A stretch of DNA of 64,000 nucleotides, taken from assembly GCA_001247695.2 (NCBI GenBank), contig LGRX02003570.1:1-64000 (forward strand), written 5' to 3'. Each line of letters opens with the position of its first letter. Within the stretch, counting starts at the first letter, position 1. A program made the position numbers and the translations under genes. Of this stretch, positions 17,269-54,749 are shown one piece after another. The notes under the pieces are model-generated. The model made no database searches and was not told where the DNA came from. It worked only from the letters and a program-made list of their open reading frames with translations. The DNA is from Cymbomonas tetramitiformis. Lineage: Eukaryota; Chlorophyta; Pyramimonadophyceae; Pyramimonadales; Pyramimonadaceae.

Positions 17269-18181
17269 CGCAGCCGCCGGCGGTGCACCCCCTTCAACTT
17301 CAGTCAGGCAGACATCAGGAGGGTAGTTGGAGCCCTCTCCATCGTCATCGGAGTCACACACTTCAACAGGCTCAGGGTCAATGTCAAGCCAGTCAGGGTG
17401 GACAGTGTTGAATGTTTTGAATGAGTTGTCAGCAGAAGCCATCGGGCCGAGAGCCAGAGAGGCAGACGGCGGCACGAAGGCGGCACTGCTGACCCCGTGC
17501 AAGTCAATCGGCTTACCATGCACGGGTGCAGAGGCCTTCGGCAGCAGCTGCTTGCTGGCGGTCGGCTCAGCGACACCACCAGCAAGCGGACCGCTGACCT
17601 CAGCAAATGCAACACGGCCAATGGAAAGATGCTCAGCAGGTGCAGTCTCAGCAGAGGCAGCAGCATCCTTGAACTGCTGCAGAGCCGTAGGCTCTGGAGC
17701 AAAGGAATGCGCAGACAGCTCACAGATTTCAGGTTGCCCCACAAGAGCACACAAGTGCTCCATGGACCCCTCATCCCCAGCGTCATAGTACCGCTGAAAA
17801 CGAAGGGCAAGCACGTCGGAGTCATAAGACTCGACGGCTTGGCAGTAGGACGCCGAAATGGACATCGGGTGAGTGTCCTTGTGAGGACACTCACTCAGCC
17901 AATGCTTTGACCCAACGGCGCGGCACTTCTCGTGCCTGCACGTTGGGACAAAGGTGCCAGACCGCTTGTCAAAAGCCACCTCCGAAGAGGCGGAATGAGC
18001 AAGCGGTTGCACTCCAGGTCGGTGGAAGCCGCGCGGAGTGTGTTTCCCATGAGGTGGCTTGGAGCCACCCTTCTTAAGGGAATCCACATCCCGCTGCAAC
18101 TTGACCAACTGAGAACTGAGCCGCTCGATGGCCGAAGCCAGGCCAGTGTCAGTGGTGCAAGATGCTACGGACATGGGGCGC
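17269..18181 (-). pseudogene. Gag1 fragment, middle part with zinc knuckle
   Basis: The second piece of the Gag1 reading frame, between the two large insertions. From the GCGC target site (18178-18181) the frame reads RPMSVASCTTDTG, then a coiled-coil-like stretch (ASAIERLSSQLVKLQRDVDSL). A basic Gly/His-rich linker and a zinc-knuckle-like CRHEKCRAVGSKHWLSECPH follow. After that comes a long Ala/Pro/Ser-rich acidic region that stops at the CGCA site of the 8.8-kb transposon. It is continuous in frame with 39644-40456 upstream and 8063-8420 downstream once both insertions and one copy of each target duplication are removed. Confidence 0.78.
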
Positions 18182-18924
18182 TGTCGCAAACGTGTGCATA
18201 TGGTGGTACAAATATCCTTGGGATCGGACAGTCTCAACACTCGCGGATGATCGTAAGTTTGTCATTAACATTCACTGGTGCCGGCAACTGAACACGCAAT
18301 TCTCAACGCAGCACGAGACCATAAGACTACAAATTTTTTGAAATTCTGATATCCTGAGATCAAACGCTAAGCTCTTCCATGCAAGCCCAGATTTCCAACA
18401 TGAAAAAGTATGAAAACAGCAATAAAATATATTCATCAAAGTTGTACAATAACCATAAAACACGAATTATTGTCTCCAAAAGCTGTGAGCAGAACTGTCT
18501 TAGCAATCTAGCACTGGCACGCGAACAGCCACCTAGCACTTGCGAAGGCAAAACAATAATGAGTCCACTGATCTGACCTTCGGTCAGAGGTTACTTATCT
18601 CTCTATGCCCTGTCACATTTCCCAAAACTGTAACGGGTCCTAGCCCTCAAATCTTCATCTGGCCAATGGAAAGTCATTATTCCATGCCAGCTTTAACACT
18701 GTTGTCGCTTAACTTATTCTGACTGACACGTCAGTGGCAAAGGAGTCATCGCCGTCGTCACCGTATCATTTCTTGGTGACCTGATACTGCGTATATCTTC
18801 CCTAGCAGGTCTGTCTCTCTCAGGAGGTCATCTTGGCGAAGCCTGTCATACTGTCACTCCTGTCACGCGTGTCACCAGCTGGACAAACCCGGCTCGATAC
18901 CACGAGAAGCCGGCGTTTGTTACA
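18182..18924 (-). repeat. Complete terminal repeat (segments A1 and B1)
   Basis: A 743-bp unit with TG...CA-type ends (TGTCGCAAACG ... GTTTGTTACA as read on the plus strand). Segment A1 is 18182-18401 and segment B1 is 18402-18924. A1 is repeated at 18927-19146 and B1 at 39112-39643. It is the only place where A and B are joined as one LTR-like unit. Confidence 0.85.
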
Positions 18925-18926
18925 GC

Positions 18927-19146
18927 TGTCGCAAACGTGTGCATATGGTGGTACAAATATCCTTGGGATCGGACAGTCTCAACACTCGCGGATGATCGTA
19001 AGTTTGTCATTAACATTCACTGGTGCCGGCAACTGAACAAGCAATTCTCAACGCAGCACGAGACCATAAGACTACAAAATTTTTGAAATTCTGATATCCT
19101 GAGATCAAACGCTAAGCTCTTCCATGCAAGCCCAGATTTCCAACAT
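18927..19146 (-). repeat. Segment A2 of the split terminal repeat
   Basis: A 220-bp near-identical copy of 18182-18401, separated from B1 by only the two bases GC. In sense orientation it is directly preceded by a purine run (GATGGGGG), which looks like a polypurine tract. That makes A2 the expected start of a U3-like region. Confidence 0.85.
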
Positions 19147-19182
19147 CCCCCATCTGTAGCTGCTGCGCGCAGTAGCACAGAC

Positions 19183-19338
19183 TCAAATATGGGCTTGTTC
19201 AGCATACTGTGTCGTTTCACCATCTGCCATGAACTTGCCCAAGCTGAAAGTGAACATACCAATGCCTTCACCTTCTCCACCCTGTAACATCCTCGCTCTG
19301 ACCAGCGGATTCTTGAATACCAAGACCCACATACACCT
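19183..19338 (-). pseudogene. C-terminal tail of pol, separated by a MULE-like insertion
   Basis: About 50 codons on the minus strand, from RCMWVLVFKNPLVRARM to GETTQYAEQAHI and a TGA at 19183-19185. The RCM at its start matches the RCM at the broken end of the pol ORF near 22735. It is the 9-bp target duplication (CATACACCT on the plus strand), present on both sides of the insertion at 19339-22731. It completes the methyltransferase-like domain at the end of pol. Confidence 0.72.
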
Positions 19339-22300
19339 GGTAGCATAATGATTCGGGAATAGATTACTCCAAAATGGGGAATAGAAATTTCAATCTGTTT
19401 TTGGGGAATAGGTGTGTGACACATGCATATGCGTCTAAAGTTTTGCGTTTAAATTTTTAATAAATCGTTAAAATTTTCCCCCCACCCATCTGTTCACTTT
19501 CGTTTTGCAAACATGAGGAAGCCTCCGAAAAAGTACACTAGGGTGTGCCTTTCTTGCGATAATGGCGGGTATCGATGTACTGTTGAACACACTGATGGTA
19601 TGCATTTTATTGTCCTCTATTCAAGAAAAAGGACAGGGTAAAAGATTCTCCATCAAAAATGAAAGGTGCGTTGCCCTTGCTTTCCACGGTTCCCTTGTAC
19701 AGTTGACTACATATATAATAAGTGTTAGGAACAACTTTTTTTGCGCAAGCAAGATTACGGGGCTTTCATTGAACCAGATACGGGGCTTTCATTGAACTAG
19801 ATACGTGGCTTTCGTTGAACCAGATACGTGGCTTTCGTTGAACCAGGTACCGTACGTGGCTTTCATCGAACGAGATACGTAATGCTACGCGAGTTCCTGA
19901 CCACGATACCCAGTGTGCAGGCAATTCTGCTTAAATTAGAAAGGGTTGGAAGCAAGATCCGTTCGGAATCTAGGATGCTGGACGGGTCTTGAGAGGGGGG
20001 TAATGGGCGTGATTCGAGCCAGCCAACTCGACTCACGCCCAACAGGGACGCATCCTGCACAGCATGAACATATCACGCATATCATATAAGCATAATAAAC
20101 ACATACTGACCGTTTGGCAGTGCAATTTCACCTCTAGCGGAAACGCGGATGTCAACCGCGTCCACGTTTCCGCTAGGCGTTTCTTCCCTCATTCGCGCGC
20201 TCGTTTGCAAGAGAGCCTGGGCAACGGATGAGGGAAGCGTTAGCAAAAATAGTATTTCGTATGCGTTGTTTTCCCTAAACAAATTGCACAAACTGAACGG
20301 TCAACCACACATCTCGTTGTGGGATGACGCGTTCATTTGGCGGAAGCGGGTGGAATTTAAGGAATTTGAAACCCGCAATAGTTGCGCTACATGGGGTTTC
20401 ATCTTCTTTGCGAAACGGGTACCCACATCATACTAAGTAGGAATATGTGATAATATTTTGAAGCAAAAGATTACTCAGATTAGTATACAATCTTTATTTC
20501 GCTGGACAGGGGCACACTCCCGGAGAGAAAGCCTTCCGCCTTTAGTTAAAATTGCATATTTAACAAATCAAACAGTGAGTATTTTCTTCAAGTATTTTCA
20601 GACGGTAATACTTAAACACTGGTAATACTTAAACACTGAGTGTTGTCTCGCGTGTTGTCACCAAGCCTTAGAAACTCACGATCTCACTCCCAAAGTGACC
20701 AAAAACCGTTCGATCGGCGATCGAACGGTTTTTGGTCACTTTGGGAACGCGTCTGAAAATACTCAGTGTTGTCACCAAGCCTAAACTCGCGATCTTACTC
20801 CCGAAGTGACCAAAAACCGTTCGATCGCCAATCGTTCGGTTTTTGGTCACTTTGGGAACGCGTCTGAAAATACTCAGTGTTGTTTCGCGTGTTGTCACCA
20901 AGCCTAAACTCACGATCTCACTCCCAAAGTGACCAAAAACCGTTCGATCGCCGATCGTTCGGTTTTTGGTCACTTTGGGAACGTCTGAAAATACTTAGAG
21001 AAAATACCAGACAGGTCTTTGCAACCAAGCCGACTTCAGTTCTCACATACTGTAGAGCCCTAAACGTACGGTTTACGCCCTCCCGAATCTGGAATTCACG
21101 GCCGTGAATATTAAATTCACGGCCGTGAATATTTCACTGCACGTATGATTGCCCACACTGTTTGCGAGTAAATTAGATTGGGAAAACATTTTCCAACGTT
21201 CGTAATGCACAAAGATATATCATTTAGACTCTTAGGTAGGAGTTTTTTTAGCTCTTGACTGAGCCGTGGCCGCATCAGCTCAGTTTGCAGTCGCGACTGC
21301 GAGCTAAGCTGAGAGGCCCTTATAACTTTCATGCACATCGCATCAAAACTCAAACAGCGGAGGGGTTCTCGTGCGTTCTAGCGCACGATACTTGGCACCA
21401 ATATTGCTAACAGCAATATTGGTGCACCCTCAAACGCACAACCTCTGATGTCAGCTATGCGCAAAACGCGTGCTACACATCATGGGTTTCGGTACATGCA
21501 AATCCAAACCCAAACATGCCAAACAGCAAAGGGCTTCCCGTGAGTTCCAGCGCCCGTAACTTTGCAAAAGTATTACTAAGATATATATCTTTTAGTTGCC
21601 AAAGGCCCAAGGCCTCAAAAGCCTTGTGCACGAAGCCATCAATTTATTTCTTTGGAGATTTATTGGGTTTGTGTTCGAGTTTACCCAAACCCAATACATG
21701 CCAAACTGAAAAGCAATTCCCGTGCGTTATAGCGCGCGAAACTATGCACAAATATTTACAAGACACATATCTTTCAGTTCTCAGAAGCACAAGGTTTGAG
21801 ATAACTTGTTGGCAAAACCATCAATTTATTTCTTTGGCAGATCTATTGGGCTTGGGTTCGAATGTTTCCAAACCCAATACATGCTAAACAGCGAAGGGCT
21901 TCCCGTGCGTTCTAGCGCACGTAACTGCGTAGAAATATTGCCAAGATATTTATCTTTGATATATTCGAAGCACAAGGTCTAAGAAAGTCTGTGCACAAAA
22001 TGGTATTACTATTTCTTTGACACAGATTTTAGCGTGATATACAAACTCATAAATCTGGGTCAAAGAAATGATATGTTAACTTCGCGCACAAGCTATCGCA
22101 AACCTTGCACTTCAGAAAAGTGAAATATATGCATCTTATCAATATATTTTGCAAAGTTACGTGCGCTGGAACTCACGGGAAGCCCTTCGCTGTTTGGCAT
22201 GCTTGGGTTTGGGTTTCAAACCCAAAAGGCATCATGCCAGCACGCGGCCGTCTTTAATATACTCAACGGCTTGCCATATGCTCTTGAGGGTGCACTGATA

Positions 22301-22731
22301 TTGATATGAACAATATCACTGCCAAGTTTCGTGAGAAGATTCTCACGAAAACCCCTATTATGCAAAGCCGCAAGTGGTTGAAACCATCTCACACCGCACC
22401 AACTTAGCTTGCAGTCGCGAAGGCTAAGCTGATGCGGTTGCGGATGGGGCCAATCGATAGTTCAAACGAAAGGTATTCACCTAATGAATACAAACGCTTT
22501 AGAATCGAATGGTGGAAAAAATTATGCTTCATGCTACATTTTTCTCCTCCTGGTCCTCGGACCATGGCTGTGAAGTGTTGGGGAGTGTGCTAGTCAAACT
22601 GCTTGTAAATTTTTTTGGCGCTCGATTGAATTAAGCATGGTTACATGTGACATATAATCTATTCCCCAAAAACAGATCGAAAATTCTATTCCCCATTTTG
22701 GAGCAATCTATTCCTCGATAACCTTTTTTCC
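19339..22731. mobile_element. 3.4-kb non-autonomous MULE-like element
   Basis: Flanked by the 9-bp direct duplication CATACACCT (19330-19338 and 22732-22740), the size typical of Mutator-like elements. Near both ends are inverted copies of a 57-bp block (19355-19411 and 22659-22715) containing GGGAATAG, CTCCAAAATGGGGAATAG and CTGTTTTTGGGGAATAG. The outermost 16 bases match poorly. No transposase is visible. The interior is made of hairpins, palindromes (ATTCACGGCCGTGAAT at about 21093 and 21114) and diverged satellite units with AACCCAAACCCAA-type sequence. It interrupts the pol ORF of the 21.5-kb retrotransposon. Confidence 0.75.
20689..20985. repeat. Three 55-bp near-perfect hairpins
   Basis: CCCAAAGTGACCAAAAACCG ... 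CGGTTTTTGGTCACTTTGGG occurs at about 20689-20745, 20800-20855 and 20924-20980, around CGATCGGCGATCG-type centres. A related hairpin with GAATGGAACCAAAAACCGT arms lies at 36188-36241 in the second MULE-like element. This links the two elements. Confidence 0.85.
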
Positions 22732-25700
22732 CATACACCTGCGGCCAATAGGTCCATGTTCCAGATGCCCAATCACATGCAAGCGTCCCGTCTGACTCAA
22801 TCGTCTGAAGTACGCAGCCCTGCTCTCGGTCATGTCTGTCAAGTAATAAGATGGAACGTGGACACATGCCACCACACGACTGGCCATCACTGCCAATGGA
22901 AACGCAATGTCCAGCGCTGCAAACCACGGTGAAGTCACCACCGCGTCACAAACACCATATTTCTCCTTCCATAAGCGATAATTACCTGGTTGAAGTGCGT
23001 CACGCGCCTCAGGCCAACCCAACTGAGAATTCCAGTCATTATTCATGAACCTCAACTGCGGCCACTGTTCCATCATCACCTCACTGATGACCCCAGTACC
23101 TGCCCACGGGTCCCAGACGCCATCGATGGACTTCCAATCCACCTCTGTCGCCAGTCGCCTCACCTCAGAGGGCACCGTGATGATCAGCTCAAGCCCCCAC
23201 TGCAGCGCGCTAGCTTCTCGCACCTGAGCCTTGGTCATATGTCTCAATTCCCCTCGTCTTTCGACTTCTTCTTCAGTCAATGCAGGCACACGAGGTGCAT
23301 CCCTCAGCTGCCTTGCCATTGCTTTCTGTTCCCGGTATTTCTTGCTTAGCACCGTGCGATGCCCTTCATTCCAACGTCCTGGCATAAAGACCTGCACAGC
23401 CTCGGACAGCTTATCCTGCCTGCCCCAATCAATCTGATCTGGCATGTCCAGGAACATGTCCTCCCCTTCCAATAGCACCTCCCTCGATGAAATCGCATGC
23501 CATGGCTGAGATTTGTCCCCCTTCACCACGCGGCGAGGACCCACGTCTGCTGGCAACAGGCGCATCTCCGAGGACAGCTTCTCACTAAGCTGCTGCTCCT
23601 TTATGCCCAGTCTGTCCTCCAGGACTCCAGAGCTCTCATCTTCTTGGGTCTGCACCTCGGCGCTGGCAGCTTGAATTCCCGTGCCTGAGCACCTGGGACA
23701 CAGCCACTCGCCTTCTGGTACTCCATCCAATGCTGGGTTAAGACACCACAAGTGGTAACCCCTGTTGCATGCGTCACATAACAACATCTCTGCCTCCCCA
23801 TCAGTCCTCCTGCACACTTCGCATGCCAGGTGCTTGCTGGGAATCGCTGCACTGCAATCATACTGGTCCTTCACCTGTAGGTGACATGGCGCGATGCTCT
23901 GCACAGTGCTTTTCTCTCTTAACTTGGTGGCGTCCTCAAGCACCACCACGCCATCTCGCTGTATTTTGACCAGCTTCAGGATGGCGGACTTGGTCGCGAC
24001 TTCCATGCCGCTGCGAGGCTTCTGTCTAATGTAGACAAAGTCACCCACCTTGAACTGGTGTGGTTTGGGCTCGATCCCACCACCCCTTCTTCCTTCGTAA
24101 TGTAAAGTGTCACGATGTTGTGCCACCTCCAGACTGCAACCAGCGTGCACCATCAGTCGCTTCACCACCTCCGCCCTTAGCAGTAGCTCCTTGACCCGTG
24201 CGTCCTTGTCATCCTCGATCTCGGGACTGAAATCTATGCTGGGCGCTCGCTTCAAGTCCGGTGGCACCACTGCCTCTTGAGCAAATAACAAAGTGAACGG
24301 TGCCACTCCTGTGGACTCTTGGCGCGCGGCATTATAGCTGAGCACGAGTGCCCAGAGCTGCTCGTCCCACTCATAGTCGAGGCCCTTCTCCAAGGCGATC
24401 TTCTTGAAACAGAACTTCATCGTACGCACCACCCGCTCCGTGAGGCCATTGCCTTCCGGTGAGTCTGGCGACGTGACTCGACGGTCTATCAGGCAGTCTC
24501 TGCATAACTGCTTGAATTCGCCCTCGAACTCCTTGCCTCCATCCACCAGGCACTCTGCTGGCGCCCCGAATACCGCCAGGACATGACTGCGAAATGCCGC
24601 TGCAATGGTCCTTGCCTCCTTGTCGGGAATGGGCACGCAGACTACGAACCTGGTGTAGTGCTCGGTCATGATGAGCACCCTGTTGTTGCCCGCCTTGGTC
24701 TCTCTCCTTGAAGGCCACGCTAAGTCCAATGACCACCGGTACATAAATGACACGATCTCAAGGGGCGACAGGCATGCCTCTTCTCTCGCGTAATGAGTCT
24801 TCACACGCTGGCAGGTCTCACATTGGGTCACCACGGCCTCAACATCCTTCCTTAGATCGGCCCACCAATGACGCTGCCACAGAAGATGCTGCGTGCGCCT
24901 TATACCCCAATGGCCCGTTCTGGAATGATATTCCTTGACCAGCGCAAGACGGTCAGCAGGCTTGGGTATCCTCACTTCCTTGCCTGACAACGTGATCATG
25001 TAGATCTCGTCCGTAGCTTCATCCCACCGATGTCGTGCTGCGCGCCTCCTCACGCGACGGATTTCGTCTTCTGGTAACTTCACGCCACCTTTGGACCTCA
25101 ACCATCTGAGGCACCATGCGTCATCATGAACATCCCGATACTTCTCGCGATCAGCCTGCTGCTCGGCCACGTTGGCCATCAAGTCCGCGAGCCTGGTGGT
25201 GCACGCTAATCTGGGCAGTCTCATCTCTGCATCTTTGGCAGGCGGACTCCAAGCAGGCACGTTGACACGCACTGCTGGAGATGCGCCCTCCTTCACGAAG
25301 TGGCTCTCGTGCCTCCGGCGATACTGCTCGATGGTGTGGAGCTGCCACTCGTTCTTCTTCTTCTTCTTGGTCTCCGCCTTCTGTCGCTGAGTCCCAATTC
25401 CTTCTGCACCCTTTTGCCCTTGTGAGCACATTATCTGCAGCCTCTCCTCCCAGTCACGGTGACTCATGGTCTTCGCCACCTGCTGGGTATATGCGTTTGA
25501 ATTCTCAACCCATTCCGCCAGCAAAGCTTGCCTCTGCTGAGGGTCCGACCTCGCGTGGTCCGCCCAGTTGTTGTCTACAGCTATAGGCTGTCCTGGGGAA
25601 TTCTCCGCCTCCAAGGACTCCTCGCTGTGAGGAAGCCCCTTCCTGCTTGCTTCTGCGACCGCCATCAACAGTTCCATAGCCCTGCGATCCATGGCTAGGC

Positions 25701-27400
25701 CCAGAATGCTCGCCAATTCTGTGTCGTTCAGGCCATCGGCCATGCGTAGTTCGCTTGCGCTGTAGCCCATGGCTAGCGCCTTCTCGTCGAGGTTCACCTC
25801 TCTGGACTCCTCCTCGATGTCTTCATCATTCTGGTTGCGCACCACAGTGCCCATCCTTGCTTTCCTGAATGCTCTTGACCCTTGCGTCGCCATGATGGTG
25901 GGAAAAGCCCTCAATGGTTCTCCCACCACGTTCACCACGTAGTGAGGCGCACGGTCTGTTCTTATCACTGGCCTGGGCTGCCAGCCCTTGGACAGGATGG
26001 ACGACACAACTCGTCCTTCTGGTCTTGCCACCTTACTCATAACGGAGCGGAACTGGTGGCCCTGGAACAAGTTGCTCCAATACGCTCGCAGTCGATGTGC
26101 GTAAGCGCCTGCTTGTGCTGCATCAAAGGACACTGGTCGGCCAATGACGCTGGCAATGTACGGGAACACCTCGTCCCTGATCTTGGTCCCGGGCCTGTGC
26201 GACAACGGGGACACGTTCTCCAGGATATATCCTGGGGGCTTCTGCTGCTGTAGCTGCTGCAGCGTGGATAGAAGCCGAACCACTTCGTAAAATAACTTGC
26301 TATGCCTGCCGTCCAGGCCTGTAAGCGTCCCGGCAGGGGAAAGGTCCTGGCATGGAAACCCACACACCATGACCCACTGACGTCCTCGAAGAGCTCCTGC
26401 CCGTATGAAGTCAGCGCTCGTCGTGTCGCGCAGATCTTGGGGTAGCGCCCCAAATTCTACCGCGCTGGGAGAGATGAGGTCAGGGTATCGTCGTAGCAGC
26501 GCCGTGCATCTGGCTCTGGCCACTGCCTGGCTGCTTGGTGATATGTCTTGATATAGGTATTGATCCACCTTCATGCCACTGCGAAGCAGCATCTCCAGAC
26601 CAGCACAAAGACCTCCACATGGCTCGTAGCATACTACACCCTCCTCCCGAGCTCGCGAGAAGAACTGCTTGCTCAACACCCTGGTGTCCACCTTCTCGGG
26701 CTTCAGGATACGTTCGCCTTCGAAGTACTCGTTGCTGTACACCGCGGGACTCCCTTCACCATGCGTGCCTCGCGTAGGTCGTGTTAGGCTCAGCGCTTTC
26801 CACGCTGCCCTCGCCAACCTTCCAGAGTCGATCACCAATTCGGGAAGATCAGTGTCGAACATCGACACCTGGTTGCACTCCAACTCTTCCTGGTGGTGCA
26901 AATCGAACAAGCGATGCACTGGCCCTGTGCCCAACTGCTCCACAGCAGCCTTCTTGCAATAGTTGGCAACTTGGACCTCTGGAGTGACCTCGTCCCCTGG
27001 GGAAACCTCCCCAGCCAACATGAAGCACAGGTGATCACGGAGATCCTTATCGTGCACTTCCCCCACGCCTGCGTGAAGCGCAGTCACCTTTTCTCTCTCG
27101 TGCCTTGCCCCAGTCTCGTCTGTCGTGGTTGGCAACGGGTAGCGAGAGGGCACGTCAGCGTTGCTGTTCTTGGCTCCTGGGCGGTACTGCACCGTGAAGT
27201 CGAACTCCTGCAAGCTGATTGCCCAACGTAAGTGCTGACCTTGAAGATCAGCCTTCTCCATCAAAGTGGTGAGCGGTGAGTGGTCAGTCACCAGCGTGAA
27301 GTGTACTCCATGCAGGTGCTGCCTCAATGTGCGCACTGCCCACACCACTGCAAGCATCTCCCCCTTGAAGCTGGCGTACTGCCTCGCTCTCTGTCTTACT
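22732..27400 (-). CDS. Pol C-terminal part: RNase H, C5 MTase, integrase, PHD, MTase-like
   Basis: A 1549-residue open frame on the minus strand from 27357; positions are relative to it. Residues 1-75 finish RNase H (EMLAVVWAVR, LVTDHSPL). Residues 241-570 form a C5-cytosine methyltransferase: motif I (EPCGGLCAGLEM), motif IV (CGFPCQDLSPAG, catalytic Cys 336), motif VI (ILENVSP) and an HRLRAYW motif VIII. Residues 811-849 are an HHCC zinc finger (H-X4-H ... CETC). The integrase core has D878, D939 and E974, with 34 residues between the last two. An SH3-like FKVGDFVYI follows near 1102, then a C4HC3 PHD finger at 1179-1223. The end (1410-1549) has DPWAGTG and VVTSPWF, resembling an amino-methyltransferase, and continues past the MULE-like insertion. 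The C5 domain sits between RNase H and integrase, so it would be made as part of Pol. It may methylate element DNA or target sites. PHD fingers often bind histone H3 tails, which suggests chromatin-guided integration. Both roles are inferences. Confidence 0.87.
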
Positions 27401-28780
27401 CAGAGATCGACTGATCGCCATGCAGATGTACTCCTTGCCATCGTCATCCTTCTGGCCCAGCACCGCGCCGATGCCGTAGGTGCTCCAATCAGTGTACAAT
27501 ATGAGTGGTCTATTGTAGTCGATGGGCCTCAGACATCTCCCAGAGCAGAGCGCGTCCTTCAGCTCCTGGAGTGCTCGGTCTTGATCCTTCCCCCAAGCTC
27601 CCTTGATGTCAGTGATCTCTTTCTTGAGCAAGTCGTTGAGAGGGCGGGCCATCTCTGAGTAGTTTGGCCCTCCTGGCTCACCCACTAAGCCCTTGTAGTA
27701 GTTCATCATGCCCAGGATGGAGCGAAGCCCCGTCTTGTCTTGCGGCCTCGGAAGCTCCTGGATAGCCTTGCATTTTGCCTCCTGCGCGCCAATGGAATTG
27801 TGCCCAATGCGGTAACCCAGAAAATCCACCGTGGCTGCACCGAAAGTGCTCTTGCCTGCGTGCAATCTTATGCCTGCGTCCCCCAAGGTACGTAACACGT
27901 CCTCAACGTCCTTCAGATGCTGCTCGGGCGTGGAGTCCGTGTAGACCACCACGTCATCTACGTACGCCACAGTACAGTGCTGCAAATGGCGCAACTCATA
28001 ATCCATGATCCTCACGAACGCAGATGTTGCCCCAGCTGCCCCAAACGGCATCGAGGTGTACTGGTAGAGCTGATTCTTCCACCAGAAGGCCACGGTCTTG
28101 CTTCTGTCCTCTTCCGTGGCCATGGGAATCTGGTGGAAGGCTTTGGTGGCGTCCAGAGTAGTCTTGAACTTGGCCTTCGCGACCTTCTGGTAGAGCTCTT
28201 CTGGTCGGTGTGGGAGCGTGTTGTCCCTCAGGGAATGTCGATTGACAGACCTGAGGTCCACCCACGCACGCAGAACCTCGTCTGGGTCCAAAGGCCGGTC
28301 TCATGATCCTTCTTGCCAGCCACGACGACGTTGCTCGCATGCCTGCAGTGCTTGGCTGCTGGCTCTATGAAGCCATACTCCAGGAGTTCCTTGCAGTGGA
28401 TATCGATGATTTCCTGTTCGCCCGGGCTGTACTTCCTGGGCCTCTGGTAGGCGGCCTTGGATTCGTCTGTAAAAGGGATAGAGAACGTGTTGTGCTCTGC
28501 CTTGCCCTTATAGCCTGTAAGATCATGAGGACTGTTGGCAAACGTGGCCTTGCACCTGCGAAGAACATTTCGCATCTCCTCCCAGTGTTCCTCCTTGAAG
28601 TCAGGATGTCCTCCAAACGTGGCATTGAGCTCAGTGTCGAGCCACGCTGCCTCGTCCTTGGTCACTGTCGTGTCACCTAGGGGTTGGAGCTCGTCCAGCA
28701 CGGTGTACGGCAAGACCTCATCCTGCTCCGCGATGTTGGCTTCCCAGCCCGGCTCCCATTGCCTCGAGGACTGCTGGGCC
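27366..28780 (-). pseudogene. Pol N-terminal part: reverse transcriptase
   Basis: Ty3-type reverse transcriptase and the start of RNase H on the minus strand, in two frames. From about 28780 to 28290 the frame encodes the fingers region (FSIPFTDESKAAYQRPRKYS, LLEYGFIEPA, VVVAGKKD). It then shifts near 28290 to the frame with VDLRSVNRHSL, TLDATKAFHQIPM, QYTSMPFGAAGA, the catalytic YVDDVVVY, and FLGYRIG. RNase H begins with LILYTDWSTYGIGAVLG and shifts frame again near 27375 into the downstream ORF. Each shift looks like a single-base-scale indel. They could be decay, programmed frameshifting or sequencing errors; two shifts in one gene favour decay. Confidence 0.85.
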
Positions 28781-29791
28781 TCCCATGAAGTGCAGGCTGC
28801 AGGGGGATGCACCCCAGGCACTGCGCGCGGGCGACATGACATTGTGCATGGGCACGCTCTCAGCCAGCTTGCCAGCAACCCACAAAACCCCGCACAAAAG
28901 CAGAAAAAATCGCAAAATTCTGTTGAAGCGCACTGCGGCTGCTGGTGAGTTCGAAGCGAGGAAGCACGCCCATACTCTCCACCCCCCGTGCGCCAAGCGA
29001 GTACTCCCACCAGCGGCGGTGAAGACCACGATAGCAAGGACCAACGCGACATAGGCGGCCTGCGCGATGCAATGAAGCCGAAGGTTGCGCCGAAGCTGCG
29101 CCCAGCGCGCTGCAAAGCGAGGTTTGTCCAACCTGGCCGGCAAAGCGGGCAGGCGCACGCGGCCCAACAGGAAAACCTGAGACCAACGCAAAGGCGGAAC
29201 GCCCCATCCACGGCCACGTTGAACGTGATGTGCGTCCAAGGGGTCGTCCGGGACATGAAGGGCGTGGCACGCCACATCCCCCGCGAAGACGCCGGCACAG
29301 ACCCACAGCCAAGCAAGGACTGCGATCAGGAGGGCGGCCGCACACCGTGACCAGCACGTCAAGAAAATGACCACAGCGCGCAGGGGCACGACCGTCCACC
29401 CAGGGTCGGCATGAACGAGGTGCACGCCAGCATAGATGCCTGTGGTGCGCAGGACAAGCAACCCAATGTACCAAACGCAGGCGAGGGCCCATAAGACCCA
29501 AACGTCATAGTATGCACGACGAGGATAACGTCGAGCAGTCGACCACCACACCGGCAGCCAGTTCAAAAACGAGGCTACAAAGTGCCCCCACCAAATGCGA
29601 GGAGGGCACCATGTCAAGTGCCACGATATCGCTTCCCACACCGCCCAGACGGCGACCATGGGCACGGTACCTCGTACCAACCACCACCAAATCACTGCAC
29701 TGCCTGCAAGCGAAAAACACGCCCGCAGGACTCCTGGCCGTAAGTGGACCGCCCGTGCAGGCAGCCCACGGCCACAGCGTCGGTTGTGCAT
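28718..29791 (-). CDS. Multi-pass membrane ORF between protease and RT
   Basis: A 357-residue frame rich in Trp, Leu, Val and Ala, with five or six likely membrane segments, for example VLRACFSLAGSAVIWWWLV, VWVLWALACVWYIGLLVL, LLIAVLAWLWVCAGVFAG, AAYVALVLAIVVFTAAGG and ILRFFLLLCGVLWVAGKL. Its ATG overlaps the stop of the Gag-protease ORF as TGATG at about 29789-29793, the pattern used for termination-reinitiation. It also overlaps the pol frame at its end. I recognise no family. The position between protease and RT is unusual; envelope-like ORFs of plant Ty3 elements normally follow pol. It could be part of a longer polyprotein reached by frameshifting. Confidence 0.55.
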   Translation of the reverse strand: MHNRRCGRGLPARAVHLRPGVLRACFSLAGSAVIWWWLVRGTVPMVAVWAVWEAISWHLTWCPPRIWWGHFVASFLNWLPVWWSTARRYPRRAYYDVWVLWALACVWYIGLLVLRTTGIYAGVHLVHADPGWTVVPLRAVVIFLTCWSRCAAALLIAVLAWLWVCAGVFAGDVACHALHVPDDPLDAHHVQRGRGWGVPPLRWSQVFLLGRVRLPALPARLDKPRFAARWAQLRRNLRLHCIAQAAYVALVLAIVVFTAAGGSTRLAHGGWRVWACFLASNSPAAAVRFNRILRFFLLLCGVLWVAGKLAESVPMHNVMSPARSAWGASPCSLHFMGGPAVLEAMGAGLGSQHRGAG

Positions 29792-32700
29792 CAGGGCTGC
29801 CCGCCCGCTGTGCCCGGGGAGCCCTCTTGAAAATGCGCCTGCTCACGCTGCGCCTCGCGCCTTTCGTCCGTATAATGCTGGAACGCTTCCGTAGCCTCAC
29901 TCCAGTTTGAGAGTGCTGGAGAAGGAGGACGGCGTGAGCCGTGGCCGGCTGGGATCCTGGATGTCCGCGGCGCGTGGACGACATGGGTAGCAGCCCCATG
30001 ACGGTCAACGGAAGGGGCAGGCGCATGTGCAGCACCACCTGCGGTCGGCTGATGCGCGAACGCCATGGGAGGAGGCGGCCATTGATGACGCGCAGGGGGG
30101 TCGCGAACCTCGTCCACATTCCTTGACCAGCGCGTATCCACGTGCTCTGACCTCATGGCCAGACGAGCCTCACGGGCGGGTGGCTGCGGCGAGAGAAGGC
30201 GCGCCTCCAAGTGGCTCAGGGCCGTCTGCAACCAGGGCACGGCTGTTTCCGAGTAACCCCACTGTATGTGAGTGAACTTCCGGTCGTCCCGCCCAAGATA
30301 CTCGTTTGTGAACTCCGTCCGCCAAGGCAGACACCGTTGATCATCCATGAAAATATAATGCACTGGAATGGCGTTCGGGTGCGCCTTGCAGCGCAGCACG
30401 TGCGCCGACTCAAGCTCTACGTACTTGCACAGCAAGGACTCGATGTTCCTTGCATAACCCCCGTCGAGCCTGTGTCCTGAGGCACGATGCGACAGATCAG
30501 CATAAGCGGACATGATAGCCCCCAACAGGTTGGCAGACACCGTCTGTCCCCCAAGGGGGAGGCGCCAGCCCATCTGCCCGCAAGAGATCGTCTTGTCGTG
30601 CTTCTTGGCGACTGCGCTGGTGATGCCCGGATGTTTCCGCATATTAAGACCCCGCTCCTGGTTGCACACGCCCAGCTCATACACAATCCGCTGGTCCTGG
30701 CAGCGGTTCGTGTGTGCCACGGCAAACTTCACCATGAAGACGGTGAGGTTGCGGTGTTCCCTCAAGCTGCGCACCTCTGCCACGGTCAGAAACCTGCCTA
30801 CTGCACTGACGGATGAGGTGGCCATCCGCACGGTGTCCCAATCCGATCCCGCCGGAGATGAAGGCCTCGTAGGAGACCGAGACAGGTGACGTGCCTGCGG
30901 CGAACTCGGAGGTGAAGAAGGTGCGCCTCCCGAGGAGCGGGGCCGGGCATCACGTGGATCCGCCCGCGTGCCAGCGTCGCTCGCAGCAGGTGATGCAGGG
31001 CGCAATTCCTGTTGAGAAGGACGAGCGGCAGCGGCGCCAACGATCTGAGATGATGGCGCATGAGAATCCTCCACGGGCCCACCGTCGCTGGATGCTGGCG
31101 ATGGAGTAGGCCCATGCATGAGGGCGAGGAAGGCGCTGATGCGTGGCGAGCCCGGTGGCGAGCCACTGGCGGACCTGGCACGAGAAGGGCCAGCGGCAGC
31201 CTGAGGTGGCACAGCGGCAGCTCGAGATGGGCCTGCCATGGCCTGGGGTGGCACTTCCACAGCCCGAGACGGTCCTGCCCCAGCGGCGGAGACAGGTGGC
31301 TGCGCAGGGGTACGCTTGGTGAGTCGTAAACGAGCCATGTCATCGGGCGGTGGTGGCCTACGCTTCGCGTCCGCATTGAGCGCCTCATGGCCCTGCCGCC
31401 TGGTGTTGACTGACTTGAGCATCTTCCGCATCTCCCCCAGGCGCACGTACTCCTGGGCGGCAGCATTCTCGGAGAACACCCTGCCATGTCCCCCAAGCCC
31501 ATCCCCCACTGGGTAGTACTTGGTGCTGGAATCCGAGAAGACAAGCTCCAGAGGAGGTGTCTCGCCGCCATGTCGAGTATACTGGCGGAGTATGCCGCCA
31601 GAGAGAGCCTCAATATCCACTGGGCAGAGGTATCGGAGCAGCTGGTACGTCCAGACGCCCGTGCTCTCGTACCAGTGAGGGAGCTGGAGCTCACCCAGGA
31701 CCTCCTCGCGATTGGACACGCGCACGTGAGACAGCGTGCAGTGCAGCAGGTCAAGCTGCTGCGTGGCTGCGCTCGGTTGAACACAGAAGACACGCTTCCT
31801 CAGATCCCACATAAGGGTACCAGTGACTTCACCACTGGGGTACTTGAGCAGTGACTGGAGCGTGTTCTGCAGCTTCTGGATTGGGTTGTAGTCGCACCGC
31901 ACCCTACTCTCCCGGGGCCTGATGACGTCCTGCTTGCTGGCCGAGGACGGCACCTGCGTCATGTAGTCGCCATCGAGCACCCAGCAGTCCTTCTGATCGT
32001 CGTGTGTCAGCTTTTGGTCCACGTATAGCCAGTTCGGGGCCATCAGCTGGTGCATGCTCACCCACTTCTGTTCGAGGCAGCGGGCGAACTCCACGCAGAC
32101 ATGCTCACAAGAGGGTCTGTCCGGCAAGTCCTGGGCGGGGTTCTGGAGGATGCGGCAGAGGCGCGCGATGTGATGCCGGTCCAGATACAACCTCTGGTCC
32201 GACCAGTGATAATCGAGAGGGGTGTCCAACGACGGATGGTCCCCAGCATTTACCCGTGAAGGACTCCGTGTCCAGTCGGTGACCCACTTCGCGTGCCCAC
32301 CCTTCCAGGGATCCGGCTCCTTGTAGAACTGCTCGAGCAGGTGCTCCGACTCTTCCTGCACGGCGGGCGTCAACAACGGCAGGCTACTACGTCGGCCGCC
32401 CTCGAGAGAGCACTCCTGACTGCGACGTTGCGCCTCAATCTCTGCTGGCGTGGGAGTTCGATGTCGTGGGAGATCAGCAGGTGGTCTCGGCGAAGGAGGT
32501 TGTGACCTCACTGGAGACTCGTCATTGTCGTAGATGTGCTCATGCCGAATCCCAGAAGCCGCGAATCTCTCTTCGCTCGTGCTCAGAGGCGTGTGTCTCA
32601 GCCAATCACACTCTAGTCCCGGTCCGAAAATCTCTGACTGCAGACACACCACCGGGTCCACACGCCTGGGCAGGTCAGGACGCTTGGGTGGCGTCATGTC

Positions 32701-34509
32701 CACCAGCGGAAGTACCACCTGAGCGTTCATGCCCAGGATCGTTGGCGCATGCGATATAGCCACTCCACTCCCAAGCTTGATATCAATCATCAGGGAGTTC
32801 TTCAATGGCCCAGTACCTATCAGCAGGTCCCACGAGTTTTCTGGCTCGAAGGTCACGAAGGCGTACAGTCGGTGCAGCGTCATGTGCGGCGTGCCCGCAG
32901 CGAGGATGACGTCCACATAGCAGTAATGCGTGAACTTCGTTGGGCTGTTGTCACACCTGGTGACCTTTGCACCAGTGCGGGCCTCGTACACCGTGAGGCC
33001 CAGTCGCCTCACAACCGCAATAGAGATGATGTTGCAGTTTGCGCCGGTGTCCATGAGGATCGCCCGATACAACATGAGCTCTCCACCCGACGACACCAAC
33101 GCCAGACCCTCGTATAACGTGGCGTTCTGCAGTTTGCAGATGGGCTGGACCTGAGCCATGAGCAACACCTGTTCGTCGGTCAAATGCTGCTTCATCTTTG
33201 CCCTCAGCGTGTCGTAGGCACGGGTCTTGATGGTGCCAGCCCGCACATGTCCATGGTCACTGAAGTCTACCACCCCCAGGTCGTCCACGCAAGCAGCGGC
33301 TGCACACCGGGCGGCGGCGCTGTCGACCACGCCGTTAGGCATCTCGTCCAACGGCACCTCCTCGACTGCACAGTGTTCTGCACCATCTGCCTGGCGTCTC
33401 ACCTGTTGCACCATCGTGTCGAGTGAATGCTCCAGTTCATGCTCGTTGACCTCAGTGGGCTGCTCTGGCTCCTGCTCGTTGGCCTCGATGGGCTGCTCTG
33501 TGGCATCACGTGGCTCGTTGCCCATGAGCTCCTCCAACGCCAGGAGGTTCTCGAAGTCCTTAGGCAGATCGATGGCGTGCTGAGATATCAGGATGGCCGC
33601 GATTTGTGAGCAAGAGCGCACGGCACTACGCAAGTTGGACGCCAGCAGATGGAATTTTCTGCTGAGGACGTTGGGAGGAACGGCCCTGGGTATCTGAGCA
33701 GCCTTGTCAAACTCTTCCGGCGTCTTGGCCTGGAAGCTCTGCATCCTCTGAGTGCTGCCCAGGGCGACTGCTGCCCTGGCCTGGAGATCTGGTACGGGAA
33801 TGATGCCTGCATCATAGCTACCCCCAAGCCTATCACCAGTAAGGCGGTCCTCCTCATTCTCCTCGTGCTCGGCCTGCTGGTTGAAGTTGGAGTTGTACTC
33901 AGACTCGGCATCGCTGTCTTCAGACTGGGCCTGTGCCTCAACGCCCTTGCCACCATTGGCTGGAGCTCCTGGCTGCAGACCTGCCAATTCCGCGGCGAGC
34001 TTCTCCTTCATCTCAGCGCTGGCTGCCACCTGCTGCGGCTGCTGCGGCTTCTGCTTGGCCTCCGGCAGCTTGAGCCACTCCTTCGTGGTGATCCCCATCT
34101 TGTGGTCGTTGAAGCGGTGCGCGATGTTGTAGGCGCGCATCTGTGCGTTCTTGACCTCATCCGGCCACTTGGAGTTCTGCCTGTCCTTGAAAAAGTTCGG
34201 CGGCACTCGGGCCTCGCGACACCCCGTGTAGCAGCGCTCTGGAGAGTGGGGCAGCTTCGTGAAGCAATACTCGCACTGGAACTTCTTCGCAGCATCAGGT
34301 GGTGGCACCCTGCTGTAGGTGGACTTCTGACGCTCGGCGTTGTTCACCTCCCTCGAAGGCTTCTTGGAGTCGCTGCCAGCATGCTGCGCTAGCTCTCGTT
34401 TCTTGGGGTCTCTGCGCCTGTCCCCAGTCTTGGCGGCAAAACTCGAGCGCCTCATGCTTGAGACCAGTGCGGCCAGATCAAGCCCCAGCTGTCTGGCCTC
34501 ATAACAGGA
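29791..34509 (-). CDS. Gag C-terminal part and aspartic protease
   Basis: A 1554-residue frame from 34455, continuous upstream to the insertion at 34509. It begins with a basic stretch and a Cys cluster (FQCEYCFTKLPHSPERCYTG) that could be a zinc-binding nucleocapsid motif. An acidic, Gln-rich region follows. The retropepsin active site is LMDTGANCNIIS (about 33020-33055), with a downstream WDLLIGTGPL. After that come about 1000 residues of Pro/Arg/Ser-rich sequence. A conserved-looking C-terminal domain is also present (LTVAEVRSLREHRNLTVFMV ... HYIFMDDQRCLPWRTEF), which I do not recognise. The frame joins 36442-37576 across the 13-bp duplication flanking the MULE-like insertion (Cys-Tyr-Glu in both copies). 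The length is far above normal Gag-protease sizes. Confidence 0.82.
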   Translation of the reverse strand, partial: SCYEARQLGLDLAALVSSMRRSSFAAKTGDRRRDPKKRELAQHAGSDSKKPSREVNNAERQKSTYSRVPPPDAAKKFQCEYCFTKLPHSPERCYTGCREARVPPNFFKDRQNSKWPDEVKNAQMRAYNIAHRFNDHKMGITTKEWLKLPEAKQKPQQPQQVAASAEMKEKLAAELAGLQPGAPANGGKGVEAQAQSEDSDAESEYNSNFNQQAEHEENEEDRLTGDRLGGSYDAGIIPVPDLQARAAVALGSTQRMQSFQAKTPEEFDKAAQIPRAVPPNVLSRKFHLLASNLRSAVRSCSQIAAILISQHAIDLPKDFENLLALEELMGNEPRDATEQPIEANEQEPEQPTEVNEHELEHSLDTMVQQVRRQADGAEHCAVEEVPLDEMPNGVVDSAAARCAAAACVDDLGVVDFSDHGHVRAGTIKTRAYDTLRAKMKQHLTDEQVLLMAQVQPICKLQNATLYEGLALVSSGGELMLYRAILMDTGANCNIISIAVVRRLGLTVYEARTGAKVTRCDNSPTKFTHYCYVDVILAAGTPHMTLHRLYAFVTFEPENSWDLLIGTGPLKNSLMIDIKLGSGVAISHAPTILGMNAQVVLPLVDMTPPKRPDLPRRVDPVVCLQSEIFGPGLECDWLRHTPLSTSEERFAASGIRHEHIYDNDESPVRSQPPSPRPPADLPRHRTPTPAEIEAQRRSQECSLEGGRRSSLPLLTPAVQEESEHLLEQFYKEPDPWKGGHAKWVTDWTRSPSRVNAGDHPSLDTPLDYHWSDQRLYLDRHHIARLCRILQNPAQDLPDRPSCEHVCVEFARCLEQKWVSMHQLMAPNWLYVDQKLTHDDQKDCWVLDGDYMTQVPSSASKQDVIRPRESRVRCDYNPIQKLQNTLQSLLKYPSGEVTGTLMWDLRKRVFCVQPSAATQQLDLLHCTLSHVRVSNREEVLGELQLPHWYESTGVWTYQLLRYLCPVDIEALSGGILRQYTRHGGETPPLELVFSDSSTKYYPVGDGLGGHGRVFSENAAAQEYVRLGEMRKMLKSVNTRRQGHEALNADAKRRPPPPDDMARLRLTKRTPAQPPVSAAGAGPSRAVEVPPQAMAGPSRAAAVPPQAAAGPSRARSASGSPPGSPRISAFLALMHGPTPSPASSDGGPVEDSHAPSSQIVGAAAARPSQQELRPASPAASDAGTRADPRDARPRSSGGAPSSPPSSPQARHLSRSPTRPSSPAGSDWDTVRMATSSVSAVGRFLTVAEVRSLREHRNLTVFMVKFAVAHTNRCQDQRIVYELGVCNQERGLNMRKHPGITSAVAKKHDKTISCGQMGWRLPLGGQTVSANLLGAIMSAYADLSHRASGHRLDGGYARNIESLLCKYVELESAHVLRCKAHPNAIPVHYIFMDDQRCLPWRTEFTNEYLGRDDRKFTHIQWGYSETAVPWLQTALSHLEARLLSPQPPAREARLAMRSEHVDTRWSRNVDEVRDPPARHQWPPPPMAFAHQPTAGGAAHAPAPSVDRHGAATHVVHAPRTSRIPAGHGSRRPPSPALSNWSEATEAFQHYTDERREAQREQAHFQEGSPGTAGGQP

Positions 34510-36441
34510 AAAATATTTAATTTAGATTATTTATTGCTGATTTTAGATTAACTCTTTTTCATGTTGATTTTAGATTAAGTTTTCTTTATGTCATCCGGCT
34601 ATGCCCATGCCCGGTGGTCCTTTTCACGACTCCTGTTCAAATCATGTGCACACAGGTCAAACGCACTAGTTCCCGCTAGCCATCATGAGGAAGCCTCCAA
34701 AAAGCTTTGTTCGCTGGCGTGTTCTGCTTTTAAAAAAGGCCCCTGTACTTCTTCTATATCCTAAACCCTTTGACTTGCCTTTTACCGCTGCACGCGACCG
34801 GCAAGCATCTTTGAAACTTCCGAGTTTCAAAGATGCGTTTTGTATTTTGGGTGCACCCTAATTTTACAAAACGGCCGAGCGCTTCCCGTTTGTGCGGGAT
34901 ATTCACATTTATTCCATGGAATATTTCATATGGATTAACACACATAAGCACGAAGGCATCGGCCACGCATCTTTGAAACTAACGAGTTTCAAAGATGCGT
35001 TTTTTGTCATTTGGGTGCGCATACCCAAATAACAAATCAGCCGAGCGCTTCCCGTTGGCGTGGGGTATCCAACGCTTGAATGTTGAATATTCATTGTAAT
35101 ATGAGTTAGCAAGCGAGGTTGCAAAGGCATCGGGACAGAATCTACGAAACTGTCCTATGCCTTTGCCTTTGGGTTTGGGTTCGAACGTGACACCCAAACC
35201 CAAAGATGCCAAACAGCCGAGGGCTTCCCGTGCGTCCTAACGCACGAAACTTGGCACGAATACTACCATGGTACATATATTTAAGTTACCAGAAGCTCAA
35301 GGCTTCAAGTTACTTGTGCGCGAAACGCGCAATCTATTTCTAAGGCAGATGTTTTGGGTTTGGGTTCGAACGTGACACCCAAACCCAAAGATGCCAAACA
35401 GCCGAGGGCTTCCCGTGCGTCCTAGAGCACGAAACTTGGCACGAATACTGCCAAGATACATATATTTAAGTTACCAGAAGCTCAAGGCTTCAAGTTACTT
35501 GTGCGCGAAACGCGCAATGTATTTCTAAGGCAGATGTTTTGGGTTTGGGTTCGAACGTGACACCCAAACCCAAAGATGCCAAACAGCCGAGGGCTTCCCG
35601 TGCGTCCTAACGCACGAAACTTGGCACGAATACTACCATGGTACATATATTTAAGTTACCAGAAGCTCAAGGCTTCAAGTTACTTGTGCGCGAAACGCGC
35701 AATGTATTTCTAAGGCAGATGTTTTGGGTTTGGGTTCGAACGTGACACCCAAACCCAAAGATGCCAAACAGCCGAGGGCTTCCCGTGCGTCCTAGAGCAC
35801 GAAACTTGGCACGAATACTGCCAAGATACATATCATATTTTTGAGTAACTTGAAGCTCAAGGCTTCAAGTTACTTGTGCGCGAAACGCGCAATGTATTTC
35901 TAAGGCAGATGTTTTGGGTTTGGGTTCGAACGTGACACCCAAACCCAAAGATGCCAAACAGCCGAGGGCTTCCCGTGCGTCCTAGAGCACGAAACTTGGC
36001 ACACATACTGCCAAGATACATATCTTTCAGTAACTTGAAGCTCAAGGCTTCAAGTTACTTACTTTTTTTCAAGCAGAACACGCCGTGAGTGTCTATTGTG
36101 GCAAAGATGGCAAATAATAAAAGTCATTATGCGTAAAGAGTCGTTATTCACGGCCGTGACTTTTAGATTCACGGCCGTGAATCTTTCCGAATGGAACCAA
36201 AAACCGTTCGATTAAAATCGGACGGTTTTTGGTTCCATTCGGACATATGGACATCACGGCAAGACAACTCTTCAGTGTAATATTTCGCATGGCATGGCGA
36301 TAGCTCAACAGGTACAGTGCAGCGTCATGGATGCATGCACCGGTAATAGCCGGATGAGATAAAAAAAACTTAATCTAAAATCAACATGAAAAATGGGTTA
36401 ATCTAAAATCAGAGAGAAATAATCTAAATTAAATTGCCTAC
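34510..36441. mobile_element. 1.9-kb non-autonomous MULE-like element
   Basis: Flanked by the direct repeat CCTCATAACAGGA (34497-34509 and 36442-36454), 13 bp or 9-11 bp plus chance matches. Terminal inverted repeats of about 70 bp start TTAATTTAGATTATTT and include two copies of GATTTTAGATTAA and CATGTTGATTTTAGATTAAG. There is no transposase. The interior carries a satellite at 35171-36060 and ATTCACGGCCGTGAATC and AACCAAAAACCG hairpins shared with the element at 19339-22731. It splits the gag gene of the 21.5-kb retrotransposon. Confidence 0.8.
35171..36060. repeat. Satellite of about 186-bp units, 5 copies
   Basis: Units start near 35171, 35355, 35541, 35725 and 35915 with GGGTTTGGGTTCGAACGTGA. 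Each contains inverted TTTGGGTTTGGGT/ACCCAAACCCAAA arms, then GAGGGCTTCCCGTGCGTCCTA and GAAACTTGGCACGAATACT, and an AACTTGAAGCTCAAGGCTTC inverted block. Diverged relatives (GGGCTTCCCGTG, CCAAACCCAA) occur at about 21500-22220 in the other MULE-like element. No coding function is seen. Confidence 0.88.
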
Positions 36442-37576: not shown

Positions 37577-37790
37577 ATACCCCGTATCAAGGTCCTGACT
37601 GACTCGCTGTCGTGCCAGTCGCCGTGCCTCCCGTTCTCTGGCCCGGACAGAGGCAGCGCTTGGCTCTGTCTCGCCCTCCGTGGTAACGTATTGCGTTAAT
37701 GCTCAGCTAATGGGCTCAAAGAAGAGTCCCTGCTCCCAGCGCAAAGCTCGTCCACCAGCAGACTGGAAGTTTGACTCAAACGAGCTTAGG

Positions 37791-38994: not shown

Positions 38995-39111
38995 AGTCGC
39001 CTGACTTCCGAATCCGCTCTTGTAAACTGCTGTTGACTTCTCGCCAAAGGGCTTCTACTTCTGGATTAGCACTGAAATAAAAAGCCGCTCCGCGCAGGAC
39101 ATTATTGTTTT

Positions 39112-54672: not shown

Positions 54673-54749
54673 AGCCCTGAGCTGTCCGTGCCTCCCGGTA
54701 CAACTCCTCCCCCCTCAAGAGCGGCCTATCTCCCGATGCCGCTCCCGGT

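Follow-up and report, generated by a model that had tools for sequence, protein, structure and literature searches.

A Ty3/gypsy-type retroelement with a DNMT3-type methyltransferase, a PHD finger and permuted terminal repeats in the green alga Cymbomonas tetramitiformis

KnitGypsy-Dnmt3 of the charophyte Klebsormidium nitens is described as an element with Gypsy domains whose Pol includes a Dnmt3 and whose repeats are DIRS-like; the authors inferred that the acquisition took place independently in the K. nitens lineage (PMC5890265). Green algae and charophytes are stated to be among the organisms with DAM-/DCM-encoding Ty3/Gypsy and DIRS retrotransposons (PMC6338049), and a 2025 survey names retrotransposon DNMT3 for streptophytes and dinoflagellates (PMC12344493). 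Split direct repeats are believed to have more than one origin (PMC4157794). Here we describe a retroelement with a Ty3/gypsy-type Pol that is present in high copy number in Cymbomonas tetramitiformis. One damaged copy lies in the window, by which we mean the whole stretch of DNA analysed (64,000 nucleotides; assembly GCA_001247695.2, contig LGRX02003570.1, positions 1 to 64,000 of the forward strand). C. tetramitiformis is a marine prasinophyte, and its assembly (851.7 Mb) was the genome searched for further copies. Oxford Nanopore sequencing was used for the published assembly (PMC10675990). We propose that the element replicates through a normal long terminal repeat (LTR) made of two parts, B-A, and integrates as a circle that its DDE integrase opens within the LTR. 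It would then be a living intermediate between LTR and DIRS/PAT elements, with a polyprotein whose chromatin reader and two methyltransferase folds mark and place the new copy. Taken with all its parts, we regard this proposal as evenly balanced between right and wrong.

The window copy read A1 (533 bp), coding region, B1 (219 bp), the dinucleotide GC, A2 (524 bp) and B2 (219 bp), with the following positions:

18182..39643, minus strand: whole element, A1-coding-B1-A2-B2, 21.46 kb
39644..39647, no strand: 4-bp target duplication GCGC, element 5' side
39111..39643, minus strand: repeat A1 (TGTAACAAACG ... CTTTTTCA)
39259..39271, minus strand: CATTATTGTTTTG within A1, complementary to the primer-binding site; putative RNA 5' end
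39100..39110, minus strand: putative primer-binding site AAACAATAATG, abutting A1
19146..19162, minus strand: polypurine tract (within CAGCTACAGATGGGGGA), abutting B1
18927..19145, minus strand: repeat B1 (TGTTGG ... CGTTTGCGACA)
18925..18926, minus strand: 2-nt spacer GC, B1 to A2
18401..18924, minus strand: repeat A2
18182..18400, minus strand: repeat B2
18178..18181, no strand: 4-bp target duplication GCGC, element 3' side

The outer ends, TGTAACAAACG and CGTTTGCGACA, formed an imperfect inverted repeat with TG..CA termini. A plain LTR consisting of A (18401/39111) was ruled out by a 222-bp duplication beyond A; since a plain LTR leaves that duplication unexplained, the ends were read as A-B-A-B. 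Among 26 further A copies (counts that leave out 6 of the 40 scored A matches), eight were arranged B-A-B, 16 had no B on either side, two were A-B (one locus twice) and none was B-A alone. The conventional 5' LTR, B-A-coding with B upstream only, was found in 0 of the 26, and in place of two identical full flanking LTRs most copies had the form A-coding-B-A-B. A solo A-B locus exists, as expected of recombination between A repeats. Subfamilies F2, F3 and F5 had the same plan as the window's own subfamily (F1), though neither the lengths nor the sequences of their A and B are the same. Twenty F2/F3 3' ends comprised 15 B-A-B, two B-A that were broken off, two B alone and one cut by a contig end, and further F3 3' ends added three B alone and one B-A-B. 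Combined, 16/23 informative F2/F3 3' ends were B-A-B, 5/23 B alone and 2/23 broken off within A. The GC spacer at the internal B-A junction and a precise CA|TG join at the A2|B2 junction were present in all four subfamilies read (F1, F2, F3 and F5).

Of 18 independent loci from the four subfamilies, 17 had direct duplications of 4 bp beside the outer ends; these 17 include one solo A-B locus and the two A-coding-B copies for which each end was read (2/2). The 18 loci exclude one-ended copies (C718, C21637, C4297, C16517, C17782 and C24634), and C8117 was left uncounted as its flanks were the same as those of C18329. Such duplications at the outer ends are expected when the unit integrates as a whole by a DDE-type reaction. 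The element had the short target duplication and TG..CA ends of LTR retrotransposons together with the split direct repeats of DIRS/PAT elements. One F1 copy (C5000:73306-79461) was internally deleted, with its A repeats 5.6 kb apart, both ends present and a 4-bp duplication.

The sites at which reverse transcription would be primed had the positions usual for an LTR retrotransposon, with the primer-binding site at the LTR end and the polypurine tract at the LTR start, if the LTR was taken as B-A. The polypurine tract directly preceded B1 in four subfamilies (CTACAGATGGGGGA in F1, F2 and F3; CTACAGAGGGGGGA in F5). A ended in CA, followed by AAACAATAATG (F1) or AAACAAAAATG (F2, F3 and F5). The 13 nt CAAAACAATAATG at the A border had a perfect reverse complement, CATTATTGTTTTG, inside A, and this complementarity was found in all four subfamilies; both partners change together between F1 and F2/F3/F5, which amounts to one compensatory change. 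When the F1 11-mer was shuffled, a partner in A occurred in 0.09% of trials. A TATA-like stretch lay about 36 nt upstream in F1 and F2, and none was evident in F5. The check for a tRNA-type primer-binding site was made by eye and covered the sequence after A1. With the polypurine tract abutting B1 and the putative self-primer/primer-binding site abutting A, the layout resembles that of a Tf1-type self-primed element (PMC4600332) whose LTR would run from the start of B to the end of A.

On these sequence features, B-A is the probable LTR during replication, and what integrates is probably a 2-LTR circle that was opened inside the LTR. Transcription would start in A1 at CATTATTG and end in A2. 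The RNA 5' end would fold back onto the site just after A1 and prime cDNA synthesis, as in Tf1-type self-priming (Tf1 and Tj1 themselves have conventional LTR ends and no methyltransferase), and the plus strand would begin at the polypurine tract before B1. The predicted product is LTR(B-A)-coding-LTR(B-A); its ends would join, giving a 2-LTR circle in which A meets B at CA|TG. The integrase would act at the near-palindrome CGTTTGCGACA-GC-TGTAACAAACG inside one LTR and not at the LTR ends; GC would be discarded and the opened circle inserted as A-coding-B-A-B.

Compared with the conventional expectation, B-A-coding-B-A, the genomic form carries at its end the B that was expected at its start. 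If the two ends of B-A-coding-B-A are joined into a 2-LTR circle, the junction is CTTTTTCA|TGTT, which is exactly the observed A2|B2 junction. A cut of this circle at B|GC|A yields the integrated form with one uncut B-GC-A inside and GC lost outside, as observed. The A-coding-B copies may derive from a circle with a single LTR that was cut at the same B|GC|A, or from B x B recombination. A circle is normally considered a dead end for integrase. If the proposed route is true, it would be a case of an integrase using a circle and would illustrate one way in which split direct repeats come about, with the permuted ends as a concrete, checkable route to them from LTRs.

Pol contained, in this order, a reverse transcriptase, RNase H, a DNMT3-type C5 methyltransferase (MT), an H2C2/DDE integrase, a PHD finger and a tail with a class I methyltransferase fold:

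27806..28234, minus strand: reverse transcriptase (YVDD)
27202..27595, minus strand: RNase H, interrupted by a frame break
25570..26724, minus strand: DNMT3-type C5 methyltransferase (MT), pol residues 226-610, catalytic Cys 350
24457..24960, minus strand: integrase, H2C2 zinc domain and D,D,E core
23689..23823, minus strand: PHD finger, pol residues 1193-1237
22732..23409, minus strand: tail, class I methyltransferase fold, DPWAGTG and TSPWF motifs

The succession of reverse transcriptase, RNase H and integrase, with H2C2 and D,D,E, identified Pol as Ty3/gypsy-type. A first-pass annotation of the sequence had described a Ty3-like Pol with a C5 methyltransferase between RNase H and integrase, a PHD finger and an amino-methyltransferase-like tail. 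Domain searches confirmed this set, and the C5 assignment was borne out by profile and fold searches. All 50 Foldseek rows listed for the MT fold were DNMT3 family entries or complexes, and the DNMT3-type motif AHRxRxxWxNL was present in the domain. The catalytic Cys was found in 65/65 aligned MT sequences and the motif VI Glu-Asn in 64/64 rows with letters there. Subfamily F1 retained Pro-Cys in MT and the full DPWAGTG in the tail. The PHD sequence was nearest to the fingers of CHD4, Lid/KDM5, MLL3, WSTF, ATXR5, BAZ2A and PHF21A; such fingers read H3K4me0, the unmodified H3 tail. For the tail, small-molecule methyltransferases ranked first in Foldseek (TM to query 0.41-0.50 in the first ten rows), and a second fold comparison favoured adenine methyltransferases, with METTL5 and M.TaqI nearest and with ties. 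Its motif IV was SPWF or SPFF, and SPPF in one relative. PTM_DIR17, a Tudor-like domain, was additionally present in 1 of 23 relatives scanned.

The domain set was not confined to the window copy. The best 97 of 3304 first-look candidates for MT in the C. tetramitiformis assembly were scored; all had at least 93% identity over at least 430 of 431 residues, and 88 were without a stop. Copies with the same order and an uninterrupted pol frame of about 2400 codons occur in this genome. The order was identical, as far as domains were present, in 78/78 proteins (77 homologs and the window), among which 57 matched the PHD profile and 30 a tail profile built within this analysis. MT was present in 45 of 57 Pols with full reverse transcriptase and integrase, accompanied by PHD in 41/45 and the tail in 25/45; the 12 Pols without MT had neither PHD (0/12) nor tail (0/12). 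These shares are no census, because the searches that fed them were seeded with the MT region. The 45 MT-bearing Pols formed one clade (local support 0.88) apart from the 12 MT-less Pols, and tree distances for MT and for reverse transcriptase plus integrase were correlated (r 0.77; 0/999 permutations). The window copy stands outside the Pol tree because its reverse transcriptase and integrase sit in different frames.

Named sources of homologs other than Cymbomonas were Monoraphidium neglectum, Haematococcus lacustris, whose match was restricted to MT and the stretch after it, and a Minisyncoccia bin. The protein from that bin (P0024), filed under Minisyncoccia bacterium, is probably algal contamination. 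Two other homologs (P0011 and P0040) are publicly labelled 'Methyl-CpG-binding domain-containing protein 9'; these labels and that of P0024 look wrong. A protein search with the tail gave 46 proteins from Cymbomonas or unnamed sources, with no name more informative than 'methyltransferase'. Scans of viral contigs with the MT domain and with the tail alignment revealed no relative; a viral-contig scan with the MT alignment and a genome-contig scan gave 80 loci each, viral/bacterial, which covered part of MT only at 24-51% identity and were not used.

When one F1 copy was compared with four F2 copies, nonsynonymous divergence (dN) was 0.10-0.11 for RNase H, 0.16-0.18 for integrase, 0.28-0.31 for MT and 0.11-0.13 for PHD. 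Within the tail it was 0.16-0.17 for the core and 0.44-0.45 for the N-terminal part, and it reached 0.40-0.53 in linkers. PHD and tail core are therefore held as tightly as integrase, and MT is held more loosely, yet more tightly than the linkers. MT is an old, conserved part of a lineage that occurs in Cymbomonas, other green algae and metagenome sources, together with PHD and a second methyltransferase fold, and so its part in transposition is testable.

The functions of these domains are proposed with less confidence than the mechanism. PHD lies at the C-terminal side of the integrase, where the Pol of chromoviruses has its chromodomain, which makes target choice by histone state its simplest reading: through recognition of the H3 tail, it may steer the integrase. 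Methylation of the new DNA or of its insertion site may be the task of the DNMT3 domain, and the tail may descend from an adenine-type methyltransferase and persist for its binding or its activity. Transitions among four copies affected 34/1566 CG, 26/1551 CHG and 35/3696 CHH sites (CG versus CHH, p 0.0008; CHG versus CHH, p 0.033), an enrichment of the 5-methylcytosine (5mC) type. This bias fits 5mC on the copies, whichever enzyme wrote it.

We favour, with moderate confidence, the reading in which the element replicates through a B-A LTR, its circle is opened at B-GC-A by the integrase and the extra domains steer or mark the insertion. A DIRS/PAT-like cycle, in which the A/B repeats heal linear cDNA on the internal B1-A2 template to give the circle A-coding-B-A-B and a DDE integrase has replaced the tyrosine recombinase, appears unlikely. 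The repeats stand in precisely the order described for PAT, Ngaro and VIPER, A1-B1-A2-B2 (PMC4157794), and the internal B-GC-A junction would act as the healing template. Such a scheme, however, needs neither a polypurine tract nor a self-primer/primer-binding site, and both lie exactly at the borders of the B-A LTR in four subfamilies; moreover, no tyrosine recombinase match was found (Pfam, E 0.1) in the 13 open reading frames (ORFs) of at least 150 codons in another copy. Still less probable, in our view, is that B-A LTR replication is followed by integrase action on linear tandem or recombined cDNA, with A-coding-B arising by cutting at both LTR-internal sites of plain linear cDNA. This would directly explain A-coding-B, the form of the 3' ends with B alone, and would make a closed circle unnecessary, but it sits poorly with the precision of the CA|TG join in every subfamily read and with the prevalence of B-A-B ends (two more being broken within A), from which the joined form is the main form.

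That the C5 domain and the tail are no longer enzymes and have been retained for binding DNA or a cofactor within the integrase complex is a possible, though doubtful, alternative. In 32/65 aligned MT sequences the Pro before the catalytic Cys is replaced by Glu, mostly as GWECQ, which to our knowledge is unusual among C5 methyltransferases, and tail motifs I and IV are degenerate or lost in several relatives; against this stand the invariant catalytic Cys and motif VI Glu-Asn and the motifs retained in F1. Practically no weight remains for the idea that MT, PHD and tail are unrelated genes captured by one copy, or an assembly error. The window copy is indeed damaged, with two nested insertions, and a separate gene inserted into one copy had been considered in the first-pass annotation; the occurrence of the same order in copies with unbroken frames, in other algae and in metagenomes, and the single clade, refute it.

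Several observations weigh against the favoured reading. The Glu before the Cys and the degenerate tail motifs make MT and tail activity across the family uncertain. The compensatory change of primer and binding site is a single event, the F2, F3 and F5 pairs being identical, and the A-coding-B copies are equally explicable by B1 x B2 recombination. The sole locus of the 18 with no target duplication, C1237 (F2), has the full A-coding-B-A-B plan; it is perhaps a recombinant. Constraint was read from dN alone, with dS saturated in the F1/F2 comparison, and the 5mC-type bias was modest and could stem from host enzymes. The circle step, transcript ends, integrase activity and all enzymatic activities are, finally, deduced from DNA and protein sequence.

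The length of the window copy was due to two nested insertions, recognised by comparison with three other F1 copies (16.1-16.3 kb) that were 98-99% identical to it. Insertion 2 split ORF1, and frame breaks were also present. The two insertions carried related 185-bp tandem repeats, yet their inverted repeats (19340-22731 versus 34510-36441) looked different. The remaining features of the copy were:

37130..37702, minus strand: counterpart of another copy's 192-codon frame, weak Retrotrans_gag match (E 0.022, below cut-off)
36442..37141, minus strand: N-terminal part of ORF1, separated from the remainder by insertion 2
34510..36441, no strand: nested insertion 2, near-terminal inverted repeats, 185-bp tandem repeats, 12-13-bp target duplication
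29794..34509, minus strand: remainder of ORF1 (Gag-protease), weak retropepsin match near 33060
19340..22731, no strand: nested insertion 1, removing the last pol residues, 10-bp target duplication

A1 and A2 differed by 3 substitutions and 9 gap columns, and B1 and B2 by 2 substitutions and 1 gap column; because these differences are so few, the window insertion is young. Elsewhere in the window, a separate DNA-methylase-like gene (8697-9776, minus strand) had a borderline N6_N4_Mtase match (8e-6, just under the cut-off), and an ORF at 54729-55670 (minus strand) had a weak C5 DNA_methylase match (8e-4, under the cut-off). A 617-residue ORF (15149-16999, plus strand) matched DUF7869 strongly (2e-48). 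A 69-bp tandem-repeat array (13655-14511) overlapped or adjoined a tRNA-His-like prediction at 14433-14511.

In the open literature, which most subscription papers lie outside, no report was found in which a Gypsy Pol combines DNMT3, PHD and tail, and none that explains DIRS-like repeats in a Gypsy element. TOC1 of Chlamydomonas has an unusual LTR order, for which the literature search found no paper. DNMT3A/3B resemble the Cymbomonas protein in joining a DNMT3-type catalytic fold with a PHD-type H3 reader, which in them is the ADD domain; the element has an ordinary PHD instead, with the integrase between methyltransferase and PHD. Chromoviruses share a chromatin-reader domain, theirs being a chromodomain (PMC2864245) and the element's a PHD followed by a methyltransferase fold. 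The self-primed elements Tf1 and Tj1 are likewise described with a primer-binding site complementary to a 5' LTR segment taken as the RNA 5' end (PMC4600332). PAT, Ngaro and VIPER share the split direct repeats A1-B1-A2-B2, but have a tyrosine recombinase where the Cymbomonas element has a DDE integrase, an LTR-type primer and polypurine tract, and target duplications (PMC4157794).

The statement in the first-pass annotation that retrotransposon-borne cytosine methyltransferases had been reported (de Mendoza 2018) was correct, and the nearest systems come from that paper (PMC5890265). SymbioDIRS-Dnmt3 of Symbiodinium is described there with a Dnmt3 within Pol and A-coding-B-A-B repeats, but with a tyrosine recombinase, in contrast to the DDE integrase and 4-bp target duplications of the Cymbomonas element. 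A review gives a general statement, and its relevant passage names no like element, PHD or repeat structure (PMC6338049). Neither of two protein searches (about 8000 candidates scored in each, most matches being without a species name) gave a Klebsormidium-named protein; KnitGypsy-Dnmt3 was compared by its description. Its likeness lies in a Gypsy Pol with a Dnmt3-type methyltransferase and in DIRS-structured repeats; that description, in the sections devoted to the element, makes no mention of a PHD, a second methyltransferase, a target duplication, a self-primer or a circle mechanism (PMC5890265). KnitGypsy-Dnmt3 is the closest published precedent in kind that we found: the kind of element is already known, whereas the domain set of the Cymbomonas element, its spread and the proposed circle route appear to be new.

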